DNA of 64,000 bases from Phytophthora quininea (taxonomy: Eukaryota; Oomycota; Peronosporomycetes; Peronosporales; Peronosporaceae). Below are positions 10,960 to 18,757 of this stretch, one piece after another. Location of the stretch: positions 806,001 through 870,000 of the forward strand of contig JAAVTG010000043.1 of assembly GCA_011947345.1 (NCBI GenBank). The letters run 5' to 3'. A model generated the notes under the pieces. It saw only the letters and a list, made by a program, of their open reading frames with translations. It ran no database searches and was not told where the DNA came from. A program made the position numbers and the translations under genes. Position 1 is the stretch's first letter; every line of letters starts with the position of its first letter.

Positions 10960-11107
10960 ACTAAGGAGAGCCATTTCGGCGGAGGCCATTTTCAGAAAAG
11001 GATCGCTCGGCGGGCCTATGTACTAGATACAGTCTGACATCGCCTAGCATACTAAATCCTAGTGAAGCAAGCCATCGTGTCCGTTGCAGCCGGGTGTGTC
11101 CGTTGCA
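10960..11107 (+). repeat. MULE left terminal inverted repeat
   Basis: This 148-bp repeat starts ACTAAGGAG. It is inverted at 14567-14722 with few substitutions and one 8-bp length difference. Its inner end carries GTGTCCGTTGCA twice, separated by 7 bp. Confidence 0.9.
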
Positions 11108-11976
11108 CTGGCAGTCCTGCTACGGCGCCTAAACCAAAAAGTGTCCTGCCGCCCTGCGGCTACATCGTAGCCGATCTGGGCCTTCGTCTGGATGTACTAC
11201 GCGCGCTGCAGCTCCACGCGAATGAGCGCGAGTACGTGCCGGTGTTCAAGGAAGTAGGTGGCGTACAGGACGACCCATATCGAATGCAGTCTCGAGTGAA
11301 AACTCCTTCGGGAGCGATCGGTGAAGTGCGTATCGCTTTGGGCGCGCTGTGCTCATGTCTGGAGCCAGACTGGTATCCTACGGTTTTCTCTTTTCTGCTA
11401 TCGCTGGAGGGCGGAGAAGAACAGGAGCCCCATCAGGATTATCCAGCCAAGGTGATCGCGGATGCGAAGAGCCATAGCCAAGGACGGGTTCCAGCTAGTA
11501 TGGTACTAGCGCTTGAGAAGGACACGCAACTGCGCGTGTTTGACGGGTGCTTTGAAGAGCGTGACGATGCTACAAGTCGCGTTGTCGACATTCCAGTTGG
11601 CTTTTGCATCATATACCGTGGCGATCTCATTCACAACGGAATGAGCTACGCAAGTGCGAACCGTCGACTGCATTGCTACCTGTCGTATCGAGGCTTGAAG
11701 TGGGAACCTGATATCGTTTCGAGTGTGCTTCCTGGGCACGGCACATGCCAACACTGCGGTATCAAGCCCGAAAGCTCCGAAAAATTCCGGACGCATCGCC
11801 GATACTGTACTGACAATCCCACCTCGAAGAAGAACCAGCAGACGCGACGTCGTACCGACAACGAGACTGGGAGCTGGAAGTGCGATGTTTGCGGAAAAGT
11901 TTACGAAAAGAGCGGATCGTACCGTTCTTACGTTTTTCGGGGACACTCAAAAACCAAAACAAAACGACGTAGCTGA
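11062..11976 (+). CDS. Transposon-borne 2OG-Fe(II)-oxygenase-like protein with C-terminal zinc fingers
   Basis: This open frame of about 304 codons is uninterrupted inside the MULE. Counting from 11062, His124-x-Asp126 (HQD in EEQEPHQDYP), His191 (GDLIHNG) and Arg201/202 (ANRRLHCYLSYRG) have the order and spacing of the iron ligands and 2-oxoglutarate-binding Arg of double-stranded beta-helix dioxygenases. The C-terminus has a Cys2-His-Cys motif (C229, C232, H245, C249) and a C2H2-like motif (C274, C277, H295) that lacks an obvious first His, then a Lys/Arg tail. This suggests a nucleic-acid-directed oxygenase; the substrate is unknown. The frame opens at GTG in the terminal repeat and the first in-frame ATG is codon 75 (11284), so the true start is unresolved (spliced leader, lost ATG or downstream start). 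Confidence 0.7.
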   Translation: MKQAIVSVAAGCVRCTGSPATAPKPKSVLPPCGYIVADLGLRLDVLRALQLHANEREYVPVFKEVGGVQDDPYRMQSRVKTPSGAIGEVRIALGALCSCLEPDWYPTVFSFLLSLEGGEEQEPHQDYPAKVIADAKSHSQGRVPASMVLALEKDTQLRVFDGCFEERDDATSRVVDIPVGFCIIYRGDLIHNGMSYASANRRLHCYLSYRGLKWEPDIVSSVLPGHGTCQHCGIKPESSEKFRTHRRYCTDNPTSKKNQQTRRRTDNETGSWKCDVCGKVYEKSGSYRSYVFRGHSKTKTKRRS

Positions 11977-12043
11977 CTAAAACAAAATAAAGGATGGGCG
12001 CCTTTATTCAGCAGATATGAAGCTTTATCGTTTTTATCTACAT

Positions 12044-14388
12044 TCAACTCCAGCTAGCATATCCCCAATATCTAGGTGGGATGCTAGTCTCTAAAAACCT
12101 GATGTTGTTGGTGTGTGTTTGACGTGTTGATAAAGTAGTTGCTGTGTTGAAGGTCAAATTTACGAGACCGTTTCCTGGAGGTGAAGCCGGGTGATTCCGA
12201 TCAACCCTCTCGAAAAGGACAGGATCTCGACGAGTGCTGCAAGGTAGCGGCCGAGATCCTCTTCTGGAGGATCGACGGCGCCTTCTTCCAAGTTGCTCGT
12301 TATAAATTGGCTCTTGAATTCGAGTAGGAGCCGCCAGCGCTAGGTTTCTACTGATCCACCAATGGAAATCAAAATCTTGCGGAGTTAGATACCGTTGCTC
12401 ATTCGATTCTGTTATGGCAATGAGTTCGTGAATACAAGGGCGACCGTGGACGATCCTGAATACACCAGAGCACACGTCACGATCCAAGCGATTGAAAAAT
12501 ATAGCTCGTGCCTCCTCCCACAGGTGGTGTGTTTGAGTAAGCGCCCACACAGATATGATACGGGTCACCGCACCATATCGATTGCCTTGAAGCAGAAATG
12601 GTACTCGAACAGAGTTCCGCTGAGCTAAGAGTCTTGTAGAAGATTCAGCAGCGTTCCACCATGGTAGTAAGCAGTTGTAGACAGTGTACAAATCGCCACG
12701 GCTTCCGCGAAGCTAACTCTTGCATTTAGCATGCGCTCCCTCCACGAAACTAGTGTCCGAATACTGTAATGATGATAGCTATCAGTCCACGCCCCAACAA
12801 TTCGAGTTTTGTACTTCCACCAGTGCTGATCTAAATAATCTGATAATGTTGAACTTAGAGATCTTAGCTCGGCGCAATTGCTTTCGAATTTCTCTTCGCT
12901 ACGAGAGTCGACAGTTGCGTAAAACTTAGTCATGAAAGAATCGGTCTGCCAGGTATTCTCGTATTTAGGCTGCCCGGGGATAGGATTTTGCACAGGAACT
13001 TGGCCCAGCACTTGTCGATCCTTCGACAGTACATTTTTGTTCATGTGCCATCGGCATACAAGCGCAGGAATCCCAGGAAAACGCAGTCACAGGCATCCAT
13101 GGAAGCCAAATCTCTGTCCATGAGGATGACACTAGGTAGACCAACTTGCATCTCGATAAGGAAAGTTTTCAACGTATTCATAGCCCATAGGTAATCCTCT
13201 TCACGCTCTCTAGGAAGCCAGCATTGTGCAACAGGAAGGACCGTGTTGAAACCAGTAAGTGAAATGATGTTTAGCAGCGGAAGTGTGTACTTATTTATTT
13301 TGTAAGTACAGTCCATAGCCAGGATCTCCGGATGGCGTCGGAACTGGCTGAGAGTCCCAAGGTGAGCCCAAAACAAGTACAAAATCTGCTGTGTTTCCGG
13401 TTCCACTTCCCAGCGAAAATAAAAGCCATCCGATCTCAGGCGAGCAAATAATGCCTCCATCACTGTCTTCTCCGATAACTCGCGTCGACAAACATTATGC
13501 TTCATGTTAGCAATATCTTGCGGGATTACGAAGAAATTCGGATCCGCTTCAAGTAAACTCGCCCGAACACTCCCGGCTGAAATTCCAACCGCTGTTTGGG
13601 CTTCAATTAATTCTTGTAAGGACGCAGCCGGAGCAATCTCTGCAGCAGCGCGGCGGCGGTGTCCCGGGTGAACACGAGCGTCTTCAGAAAGAGGATGATT
13701 ATGAAGGCGGCTTCTATTGCGTGTGTGCACAATCTTCCACGGGACCGTCCGGCTTCTTCTTGTCGACAGCTCGCAAAATCAATTTCATGCGGCATCCGAT
13801 CCGTATTGATCCCAGCATCGGTTGCTTCCTTTTATCATCAGTAAGATGTTGAGTGCATTTCGGCTTTCCTGCACGGTCGCAATCAAAACCGCGCTTCCAT
13901 ACACGCCTCGGTGCTCTCCCAATGTAGAAAGCTCGCCGTCTAGTCATATCGTATCCGTGATCCCTCGTCCAAGCATGTAAAGCAACAATTGCTTTCTCTT
14001 CAGACTCGTATTGGCTTTGAGGCGGCGGCAAAATTTCGTACGTCAGCATAGGAGCAGCAGCAGCAGACTTGTCTTCATCAGAACTGTCTGAGCGGGAGAC
14101 AGCTAAATTCGAGCTGGAATCACTTCTCAAGTCCTCAAACGCTACAGGTGTATCGACACTCTCCAAAGCGCTTTGCAGTGATCTCATATTCATGTTCGGT
14201 ATGAGCTCTTCATAATCCGCAGAGCTCATACTTGGAGGCGAAGAAGGATTGCTCGACGATTCCGAGTCATCCCAGAGAGGAGGGAGATCATGCAGTGAGT
14301 TGGCAAGGTCGAGTGCCGAAGGAGTGCTTGAACGGTCTTGGATTGCCGAAGCCGAAGGGTCAGCATTGAAAAGTGCGGAAATGTTCAT
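12044..14388 (-). pseudogene. MULE transposase (frame-broken)
   Basis: Starting at ATG 14388, the reading encodes an acidic Ser-rich N-terminus, then a FAR1-like DNA-binding segment ending in WKIVHTRNRSRLHNHP. Next comes the MULE catalytic domain: EILAMDCTYKINKYTLPLLN, then PSVILMDRDLASMDAC, then CRWHMNKNVL. A C-terminal SWIM-like Cys/His segment (DVCSGVFRIVHGRPCIHEL) follows. The protein is split over at least four frames, with breaks near 13720, 13045 and 12650. Some may be consensus errors of the kind seen elsewhere in the window, but several together make it uncertain that the transposase is functional. It would act on the inverted repeats flanking the element. Confidence 0.85.
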
Positions 14389-14566
14389 TTTTGGTTTTAA
14401 GGTTGTTGTGAGTCTCGGGGCTGTGAAGGCGGGTTCTTTCCTGGGGGAGGATTTTGGGAAATGAGTATGTCACCAACCTTTGAATGATACCGTTGTATGT
14501 CTTCGCAACCGAAGACTTGCGTCTTCCGCTCTGACCCGGGATGAACGACCCGGTATTAATAAGTCT

Positions 14567-14722
14567 TGCAACAGACACACCCGGCTGCAACAGACACGCT
14601 GGACTTGCTTCACTAGGGTTTAGTATGCTAGGCGATGTCAGACTGTATCTAGTGCATAGTGCATAGGCCCGCCGAGCGATCCTTTTCTGAAAATGGCCTC
14701 CGCCGAAATGGCCCTCCTTAGT
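14567..14722 (-). repeat. MULE right terminal inverted repeat
   Basis: This 156-bp reverse complement of the left repeat contains an extra 8 bp (a duplicated CACTATGC-like stretch near 14655). High identity between the two ends points to a recent insertion. Confidence 0.9.
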
Positions 14723-14922
14723 AATGCCCCCAAAACACCAGTTGTTTTGTAGCTCAACACCGCACATTCCCCCAATGCACCGGTGCAAAGTCTGGACGTA
14801 GCTGTGCTGCGACAACACCGTGCAAAGTCTGGCTCGATTTAACGACGCCTTCTGATTGGACGGGCTCTAGCGGCAGTATTAGCCAATAGACCTCATACCT
14901 CAATTCCCCCTCCACATGACGA
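14723..14922. other. Spacer between MULE and decayed gene
   Basis: No feature recognised. The sequence just inside this spacer should hold a target-site duplication if the MULE border is right, but none is evident. Confidence 0.3.
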
Positions 14923-16797: not shown

Positions 16798-18757
16798 CTA
16801 CTCTCGTTCTAAAGCCTGACCGGCATTTCTTGGACGCCCTCCGCGACGAGTTCCAATCTGGCGGTGAGCTGGTGTGCGGTTGACTAGTGTTTCTCTCCCC
16901 ATGATGTCTATCGTTCCTTGCGTTTCCATCGCGTACAGAAGGTGAATGCACGAGCCGTACTTGAAGCAGTAATTACAGGGGCAGACACGAGCCGAGATGT
17001 TGACAGGCCAACCCTGGGCTGGCATTCCACGTGTCTCCATGTTGGCAGTCAATTTACTCAGCTGCGACGAAACTGGCAAGTCTTCAACAGTCCGTCGTCT
17101 TGTCTCGTCAAACACTCGCGGGGATGGTCGACTGACAACGCTGACAACATTAGCATGCTGCACCCGCGCGTCAGCAAGCAGGAATGCAATGCTGCAGCGA
17201 GAGGTGGTGTTCATCGAAAGTAAGTTTGCGCGCATCATCGCTTTAACACGGCGAACTAGTCTCGCGTCGGGCTCACAGGAAGTTGCGAACGGCCTAGCTG
17301 TGGCACCTTCACTACGGCAACGATTCAGCAGTTGCGGAATCAGAGCGCCCACCTTCAGTTTGCGACGTAACGTCACGTCCCGTTTAATAGCAGCATTGTA
17401 GGTTTCACAAGGGTTGTTAGTGGTCGCATATCCCTGTGGTGTATGGAAGCATTGCCACCTCCAGAACCGATGGTTCAACCAAACCTTCGAAAAGTATGCG
17501 GAAAATTGTGCCAGCTCCGTCGAAAGTTGCCACCGAGCTTGAATCTCTGCAAGCTTTGAGTGGAATGCCGCCTCATTTTCAGTAAAGTGTAGATCATGAA
17601 TGTCTTCCATTACCTCAGTTGCTCTGGCCGGGGTAAGAAACCGACTTTTCTCGAAAATCTTCTTGGCTACATGAAAGTAGCACACCAGAAAAGTGCAATC
17701 GCAGTCCAACCCAAACACAGAGTTGACTGCGTCCCACTGGGCTGCGTCGGCATCTCCCACGACGTATTTCACGCGTAGAGGCCTACCCGTCACGGCCGCG
17801 AATACATTGCGTAGCAACAACAGCACTTCAGTATGCTGGTCTTCATGCTGCCTGGATACTATGAAGATAGCTAGAAGGTGAAAGTGCCTTGCCTTGTCCG
17901 ATAGCCCAACGACGATTACCGGATACCCAACTTGAGTGAGCTTGTAGGTTGCGTCCATGTGTAAAACAAAAGACTCGGGATCGCGATCTGCACGGCGCAG
18001 TAGCTTTTGGAGCTGACGCCGGCGACAAATGGATCAGCGTCACTCCCATTCCCCGTCTCGTAGTTTCCGTTCTCATCCCTCCGACTCGTAAACGTGAAGG
18101 CAGCAGTCTCTTCCTCAAGACCACTAAACCCTGCTTCTTGCACCTTTCGGAGCACAGCGCTACGGAGGTCGCTACCGCCTAGTCGTCCAACAACGTGTAG
18201 ATGTGCGAAACGCTGCACCCTCGACAACGGCGGTGCCGTCGTCTCGTCCAAGCCGAAGCGCTCTAAAAGGCGTTCCAAATCCGCTTAGGCTTTAAGCCTT
18301 GCGCAGCTCAGTCCCTCACGACGTCTTTCATGGGTTCCGTGAGTACAGGCTTGCGTGCTGTTTTAGCGGGTGTAGCATGCGTGTAAGCCACTTCGACAGT
18401 GACTACAGCCTCTTCTTGACACGTCATGACACGAGCTCGCCAAGGGAACTCAGCAGTCTTCGCGACATTAGCGCACAGCTTGCACGCGCAGCGAAGTTTC
18501 TGGACACGCATAGCATGGGGAGCTGACTGTAGACACACGAAGCACGGAGACAGATCGCTTTTCTTGATGCAGTACTCCTTGAAGTCGCCGAGTAGATTCG
18601 ATGCTTCGAGGGGCGACATTGCTGAAGCTACGAGCTGCCGGGGGTGAGGAGCAGTCATGGTTACGGGAGGGGGCGTGGCGATTGTCGGAGGTGACGGGTG
18701 GTTCAGGAATGTTCGCTCTTTGCAAAAGCCCCCCTCCCCTTCTTGTGATTGGGTCAT
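16798..18757 (-). pseudogene. Second MULE transposase (frame-broken, no TIRs found)
   Basis: The best-preserved part (16798-17958) begins within the catalytic domain at LHMDATYKLTQVGYPVIVVG, contains YVVGDADAAQWDAV and CYFHVAKKIFEKS, and ends with a SWIM zinc finger (CPCNYCFKYGSCIHLLYAM) and a basic tail. Upstream fragments in other frames (18278-18020 and 18757-18308) supply the N-terminus, including a Cys-rich stretch CACKLCAN. The breaks are near 18020 and 18295. It belongs to a different MULE lineage from the element at 10960-14722, because its SWIM motif and flanking residues differ. I found no long inverted repeats around it, so it may be an old remnant. Confidence 0.8.

Follow-up and report, generated by a model that had tools for sequence, protein, structure and literature searches.

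A predicted 2-oxoglutarate oxygenase gene with zinc fingers carried by Mutator-like elements of Phytophthora quininea

Introduction

To our knowledge, transposon-borne oxygenases are known only as fungal TET/JBP enzymes. These dioxygenases are encoded by fungal Kyakuja, Dileera, Zisupton, hAT, Harbinger, EnSpm, ESTA, Plavaka, IS3EU and Helitron elements, as stated in the abstract of Kojima 2025 (PMC12730594). Here we describe an oxygenase gene located in a Mutator-like element (MULE) of the oomycete Phytophthora quininea, within a window of 64,000 nt (assembly GCA_011947345.1, contig JAAVTG010000043.1, positions 806,001-870,000 of the forward strand; positions below are window-relative), and show that this gene is the second gene of a two-gene MULE. 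As in the fungal case, a 2-oxoglutarate (2OG)/Fe(II) oxygenase is a recurrent passenger of unrelated DNA transposon lineages, Helitrons included. Unlike in the fungal case, the carriers are oomycete MULEs, which stand outside the carrier list of that abstract, the oxygenase is of the PhyH/prolyl-hydroxylase type with zinc fingers, its Helitron-linked version is inactive by sequence, and the hosts have relatives in which 5-methylcytosine (5mC) was not detected (PMC6211444).

Two other systems are close to this one. PMC12730594 mentions SET genes in Phytophthora Harbinger and MuDR elements, and Phytophthora MULEs with a SET methyltransferase form group 16 in table 1 of Dupeyron 2019 (PMC6446971); the latter lists no oxygenase for Phytophthora MULEs, and the word "oxygenase" occurs 0 times in its text. 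In both cases an oomycete MULE has a second gene for a chromatin-type enzyme, an oxygenase here and SET there, and the two types are joined in P0063, a distant database relative containing a SET domain (E 1.9e-5) and this type of oxygenase in one protein. The Arabidopsis VANDAL elements also encode an extra protein, the anti-silencing VANC; it is described as a sequence-specific binder (PMC5735166, PMC10398659), while the present protein has an enzyme fold and a putative function. Pack-MULEs, which contain host gene fragments and have lost the transposase (PMC6446971), do not fit, since a transposase is present and the passenger is conserved across subfamilies. A search of the open-access literature, with subscription papers and Repbase reports lying outside it, returned no title reporting this oxygenase family in transposons.

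Results

Organization of the window element

The element belongs to lineage A, one of four MULE lineages that we labeled A, B, C and D. Its ends and transposase remnants are as follows.

10960..14729, no strand: whole element; the left repeat lacks its outer 7 bp and the target duplication is gone
10960..11107, plus strand: left terminal inverted repeat, 91% over 156 columns against the right repeat
14567..14729, minus strand: right terminal inverted repeat, which in relatives starts GGG....CTAAGGAGGGCCATTT
12053..14031, minus strand: four overlapping pieces left of the transposase, aligning with residues 4-662 of the frame of copy C558
13041..13730, minus strand: frame in which the MULE transposase domain is found (PF10551, E 9.6e-13)
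13714..14388, minus strand: N-terminal transposase frame with an ATG (frame list, comparison with copy C558)

An initial annotation of this DNA had described inverted repeats of about 150 bp enclosing a broken, minus-strand MULE transposase, and this description holds. The repeats align between 10960-11107 and 14567-14722 with an E value of 2.9e-58; the outermost 7 bases found in relatives are missing from the left one, and an exact 8-11 bp target duplication was looked for around the element and not found. The transposase of copy C558 is unbroken (one 667-codon frame, PF10551 E 1.3e-20), and the matches to it fall in the four pieces listed, so that the window transposase is frameshifted. On the opposite strand, convergent to the transposase frames and between the two repeats, lies the oxygenase gene.

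11062..11976, plus strand: oxygenase open frame, 304 codons, with a GTG start inside the inverted repeat
11431..11439, plus strand: H-Q-D codons, first two iron ligands (sequence, alignment of relatives)
11632..11667, plus strand: distal iron-ligand His (11632-11634) to 2OG Arg (11665-11667)
11746..11808, plus strand: first C-terminal zinc-finger motif, C-x2-C..H..C, complete
11881..11946, plus strand: second C-terminal finger, C-x2-C..Y..H, mostly with H for Y in relatives

The uninterrupted frame of about 300 codons and its HxD...H...R order were thus correctly recognized. Of the two Cys/His motifs proposed with them, the first is complete and the second has a Tyr where most relatives have His (among 48 aligned relatives, H 32, Y 1, which is the window copy, E 1 and gap 14). 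Copy C474, which stands outside the 48-row alignment and is the closest relative of the window copy (94%), also carries this Tyr, together with an ATG at the shared start and one internal stop. The window stretch homologous to relatives starts at 11122, where their ATG is replaced by ACG; this ATG is found in 12 of 17 copies inspected, the window copy being counted among the 17. No in-frame ATG occurs upstream of 11122 in the open frame, and the next one falls within the domain. The passenger had been called intact beside a broken transposase, a contrast that fails because both window genes are decayed. The window copy itself probably makes no product.

The oxygenase is the second gene of a MULE

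We then turned to the whole assembly (87.2 Mb in 993 contigs), to which all genome-wide counts refer. The oxygenase search gave 105 matches among 130 of 138 candidates scored, which were merged by hand into 65 loci, and at least 200 transposase loci of lineages A-C were obtained by the same manual merging. With pairing defined as an oxygenase locus at most 5 kb from a listed A-C transposase, at least 37 of the 65 loci are paired, and the genes are convergent in 34 of these 37; an even spread would predict 2.5%, i.e., 1 to 2 loci. Among the 15 best oxygenase matches, 14 are paired convergently with a transposase.

Thirteen copies have alignable inverted repeats, and exact 8-9 bp target duplications abut GGG at both ends in nine of them. 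In copy C474, an 8 bp duplication adjoins GGG at just one of the two ends; C75, C752:290127 and the window copy were searched and gave no exact duplication. The same test with mispaired ends from different copies, used as a control, gave 0 hits. The duplications differ from copy to copy, indicating separate insertions. The PF10551 domain, the terminal inverted repeats and the duplications identify the elements as MULEs, and the oxygenase is a true element gene, the second of the two that such a MULE carries. A host gene captured once is rejected by the pairing and the target duplications in many copies; the gene is transposon-borne, as the annotation had supposed, since many copies lie inside MULE repeats and several MULE lineages are involved.

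The chance that an unrelated host gene merely lies near a transposon, or that the motifs arose fortuitously in an open frame, is negligible. The lost start codon and the absence of any Pfam family above its cut-off for the window protein would agree with such a coincidence; it is refuted by the repeats enclosing both genes, by the target duplications and by the pairing of at least 34 of 65 loci in one orientation against 2.5% expected, and the confident predicted fold described below also speaks against it.

Among the matches listed, 28 of the 65 oxygenase loci have no A-C transposase within 5 kb. By reading the DNA at ten of these 28, transposase pieces (A-D) were found at six (C754, C60, C610, C967, C611 and C27:28446, the last having lost the first iron-site histidine of its oxygenase) and were absent at C543, C352 and two C29 loci. 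As to whether repeat-related copies always contain the oxygenase, many do, but none was matched in C517:213685-217018, which is related by its repeats, nor within the DNA read for the MULE-A relatives C93 and C221. In the latter two (C93:35843-41700 and C221:24726-30300; L033/L041, L034/L042), another minus-strand frame, of 145 and 254 codons, respectively, occupies the oxygenase place. A change of oxygenase frame near residue 67 is common to six copies (C19, C256, C113, two in C471 and C752:1264044), several of which also shift the transposase frame at a similar place; either these copies moved in trans or programmed frameshifting occurs.

At least four MULE lineages carry the gene

Partners of the oxygenase gene come from four or more MULE lineages. 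Distant oxygenase copies (~31% identical) are convergent to a lineage-B MULE (PF10551 E 2e-8) in C746, C8 and C745; copy C8 is bounded by distinct ends (GAGA...), with a 9-bp duplication, GTTGTAGAC, flanking both genes, and no target duplication was found for C746. Lineage C is a FLYWCH MULE (PF10551 and PF04500), and a third type of oxygenase, 36-45% identical, is convergent to it at 7 of 7 lineage-C loci that are at least 71% identical to the query among the matches listed. In lineage D, represented by C610, C966 and C967 (C950 being near-identical to C966), oxygenase and transposase are on the same strand in a shared unit of ~4.8 kb, as determined by comparing C610 with C966. Element ends and target duplications were sought for lineages C and D and could not be fixed. 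The lineage-D copies C610 and C966 (L017/L043/L065, L019/L044/L066) also share a third frame of 236-280 codons between transposase and oxygenase.

The transposases of A, B and C are mutually 20-23% alike in local alignments, and that of D is 38% alike to C. Their oxygenases are 31% alike between A and B and 45% between A and C, the latter over a partial alignment. A tree of 32 proteins places the A rows in one group (89/87) and the C rows in another (100/100), with B and D apart, one row each. Judged by these identities and the tree grouping, the oxygenase gene seems to have been transferred between MULE lineages.

A second MULE-type transposase frame is present in the window at 16927-17967 on the minus strand (open for 411 codons and 35% alike to lineage B), 2.2 kb right of the element described here; the genome search gave no oxygenase match beside it.

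The protein is of the PhyH/prolyl-hydroxylase type by predicted fold

The structure prediction is confident and shows the double-stranded beta-helix of 2OG/Fe(II) oxygenases, in agreement with the proposed 2OG oxygenase identity. The HxD...H iron triad and the 2OG Arg are each retained in 45-47 of 48 MULE-type sequences, the window copy included. Predicted fold and residues are thus those of a PhyH/prolyl-hydroxylase-type 2OG oxygenase, and one or two zinc fingers come after this domain. Fold and iron/2OG residues are shared with OkaE, AsqJ, FtmOx1, KanJ, Pseudomonas putida P4H and PHD2, from which the family differs by a low identity (~10-22% in structural alignments), by its zinc fingers and by being transposon-borne.

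In profile searches, 10 of the 48 members match PhyH (PF05721) at E <=0.01, the strongest at 3e-7; the window protein is not one of these 10. The 48 members match 15 Pfam families at E 0.01, none of them of the TET/JBP or AlkB type, and membership in these groups, as well as the class of TET-positive transposons, was rejected on this ground. The lists of similar structures favor neither inclusion in nor exclusion from TET/JBP or AlkB. The lack of a profile match and the PhyH/prolyl-hydroxylase likeness distinguish this pairing from that of fungal TET/JBP, as had been suggested as a possibility. An NCBIfam scan of 7 proteins gave no match. When PDB sequences were searched with the profile of the whole family, chiefly zinc fingers were returned; with the catalytic part alone, the top match is a TALE repeat protein (E 0.0034), which looks like chance, and 2OG oxygenases are weaker (E 0.0084 and worse). 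Relatives with an organism name all come from Phytophthora in a first protein search, and a second search adds one Globisporangium. Near the start of two database proteins, P0001 (from a JGI source) and P0004 (from Phytophthora cactorum), residues resemble the translated inverted repeat (TKEGH, by eye), suggesting that the same element exists in other genomes.

Synonymous sites are saturated between subfamilies, and the oxygenase stays recognizable (nonsynonymous divergence, dN, of 0.37-0.48 for the window copy versus the C19 and C558 types). The ratio of dN to synonymous divergence (dN/dS) for C558 versus C3 is 2.45, probably inflated by gap placement. Since young-copy values are noisy and subfamily synonymous sites saturated, no claim of selection is drawn from dN/dS.

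A Helitron-linked branch has lost its iron site

A distant branch of the oxygenase fold is convergent to Helitron Rep genes at 32 of 49 loci. In this branch, all 28 sequences compared have Arg in place of the first iron His and lack the 2OG Arg; the predicted oxygenase fold is kept despite this loss. The Helitron-type gene with the His-to-Arg change was seen in L060-L062 and L064 (C578, C530, C290 and C558:304723) and has many copies, some near-identical by match values. The Helitron version would retain binding only, as a silencer-blocking or regulatory protein. Such a branch shows that a non-catalytic role is selectable and leads to the idea that the MULE form also acts by binding alone, in the manner of VANC, with zinc fingers on an oxygenase-fold scaffold and catalysis secondary. 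We consider this unlikely for the MULE-type family, whose four catalytic residues are nearly always retained and would be needless for a pure scaffold.

These data also bear on whether the gene is passive cargo, a host oxygenase trapped between element ends and copied without use. MULEs are prone to acquire host gene fragments (PMC6446971), many oxygenase copies are broken, and the ATG is gone in the window copy. However, subfamilies with saturated synonymous sites retain the gene, its place, its orientation and the catalytic residues, and relatives of the gene are found again and again next to Helitrons and several MULE lineages, so that we hold passive cargo to be quite improbable.

Discussion

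The most likely function, proposed from sequence, is that of a putative element helper countering host silencing. The zinc fingers would guide the enzyme to DNA, probably to element ends or element chromatin; there, it would oxidize a mark or a protein that otherwise keeps the element silent or the transposase inactive, and elements with the gene would spread better. We give this helper role as a whole a probability of roughly one half.

The first candidate targets are N6-methyladenine (6mA) and a methylated or hydroxylatable chromatin protein. In Phytophthora infestans and Phytophthora sojae, 6mA was detected and 5mC was not; in this work on the two species, 6mA was linked to genes with weak expression, transposable elements in particular, and a 6mA methyltransferase mutant had more active DNA elements (PMC6211444). 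If the P. quininea genome is alike, a TET-like role on 5mC is thus unlikely, and an eraser of an adenine mark is a natural guess. A protein target is nearly as good a guess, because the nearest solved structures are those of enzymes whose substrates are proteins and small molecules.

Several points weigh against the helper role. The closest solved folds do not act on DNA, and the 6mA marking of transposable elements is in itself no proof that 6mA silences them. Transposons cluster, hence the even-spread expectation is too low, although clustering does not explain the single orientation in 34 of 37 loci. Near-identical contigs inflate the counts (C745 and C746 are alike at 99.3% across all sequence read, C950 and C966 at 99.8% over 3.35 kb). 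The oxygenase is not needed for transposition in general, since many A, B and C MULEs are without it; convergent oxygenase loci number 19, 8 and 7 in A, B and C, respectively, against at least 47, 71 and 82 transposase loci. Finally, young copies compared in pairs give dN/dS values that are near neutral or uninformative.

Alternatively, the oxygenase could hydroxylate a protein, most simply the transposase of the same element or a chromatin protein of the host, thereby controlling stability or activity and touching no nucleic-acid mark. We find this conceivable but doubtful: partner transposases that are so little alike, together with the Helitron genes, argue against one conserved transposase target, and the DNA-binding kind of fingers suggests a nucleic-acid site of action. 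The helper role can also be extended into a broader proposal, which we put forward tentatively and think rather unlikely as a whole, in which an oxygenase-zinc-finger helper private to oomycete DNA transposons has passed among four or more MULE lineages and also entered Helitrons, the live MULE form being an eraser of adenine methylation or a stand-in chromatin mark and the Helitron form being fixed and catalytically dead. If true, this would be a second, independently evolved transposon-borne eraser system beside fungal TET.

The elements described here provide a defined protein family, the substrate of which would tell what keeps oomycete transposons silent, and the active-site-bearing MULE form and the inactive Helitron form offer a built-in comparison of catalysis against binding. 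A different oxygenase class beside unrelated transposons in a far-off lineage would show that the uptake of oxidizing helpers is a repeated strategy, and its recurrence in several unrelated jumping-gene lineages of one genome suggests that it helps these elements to spread.
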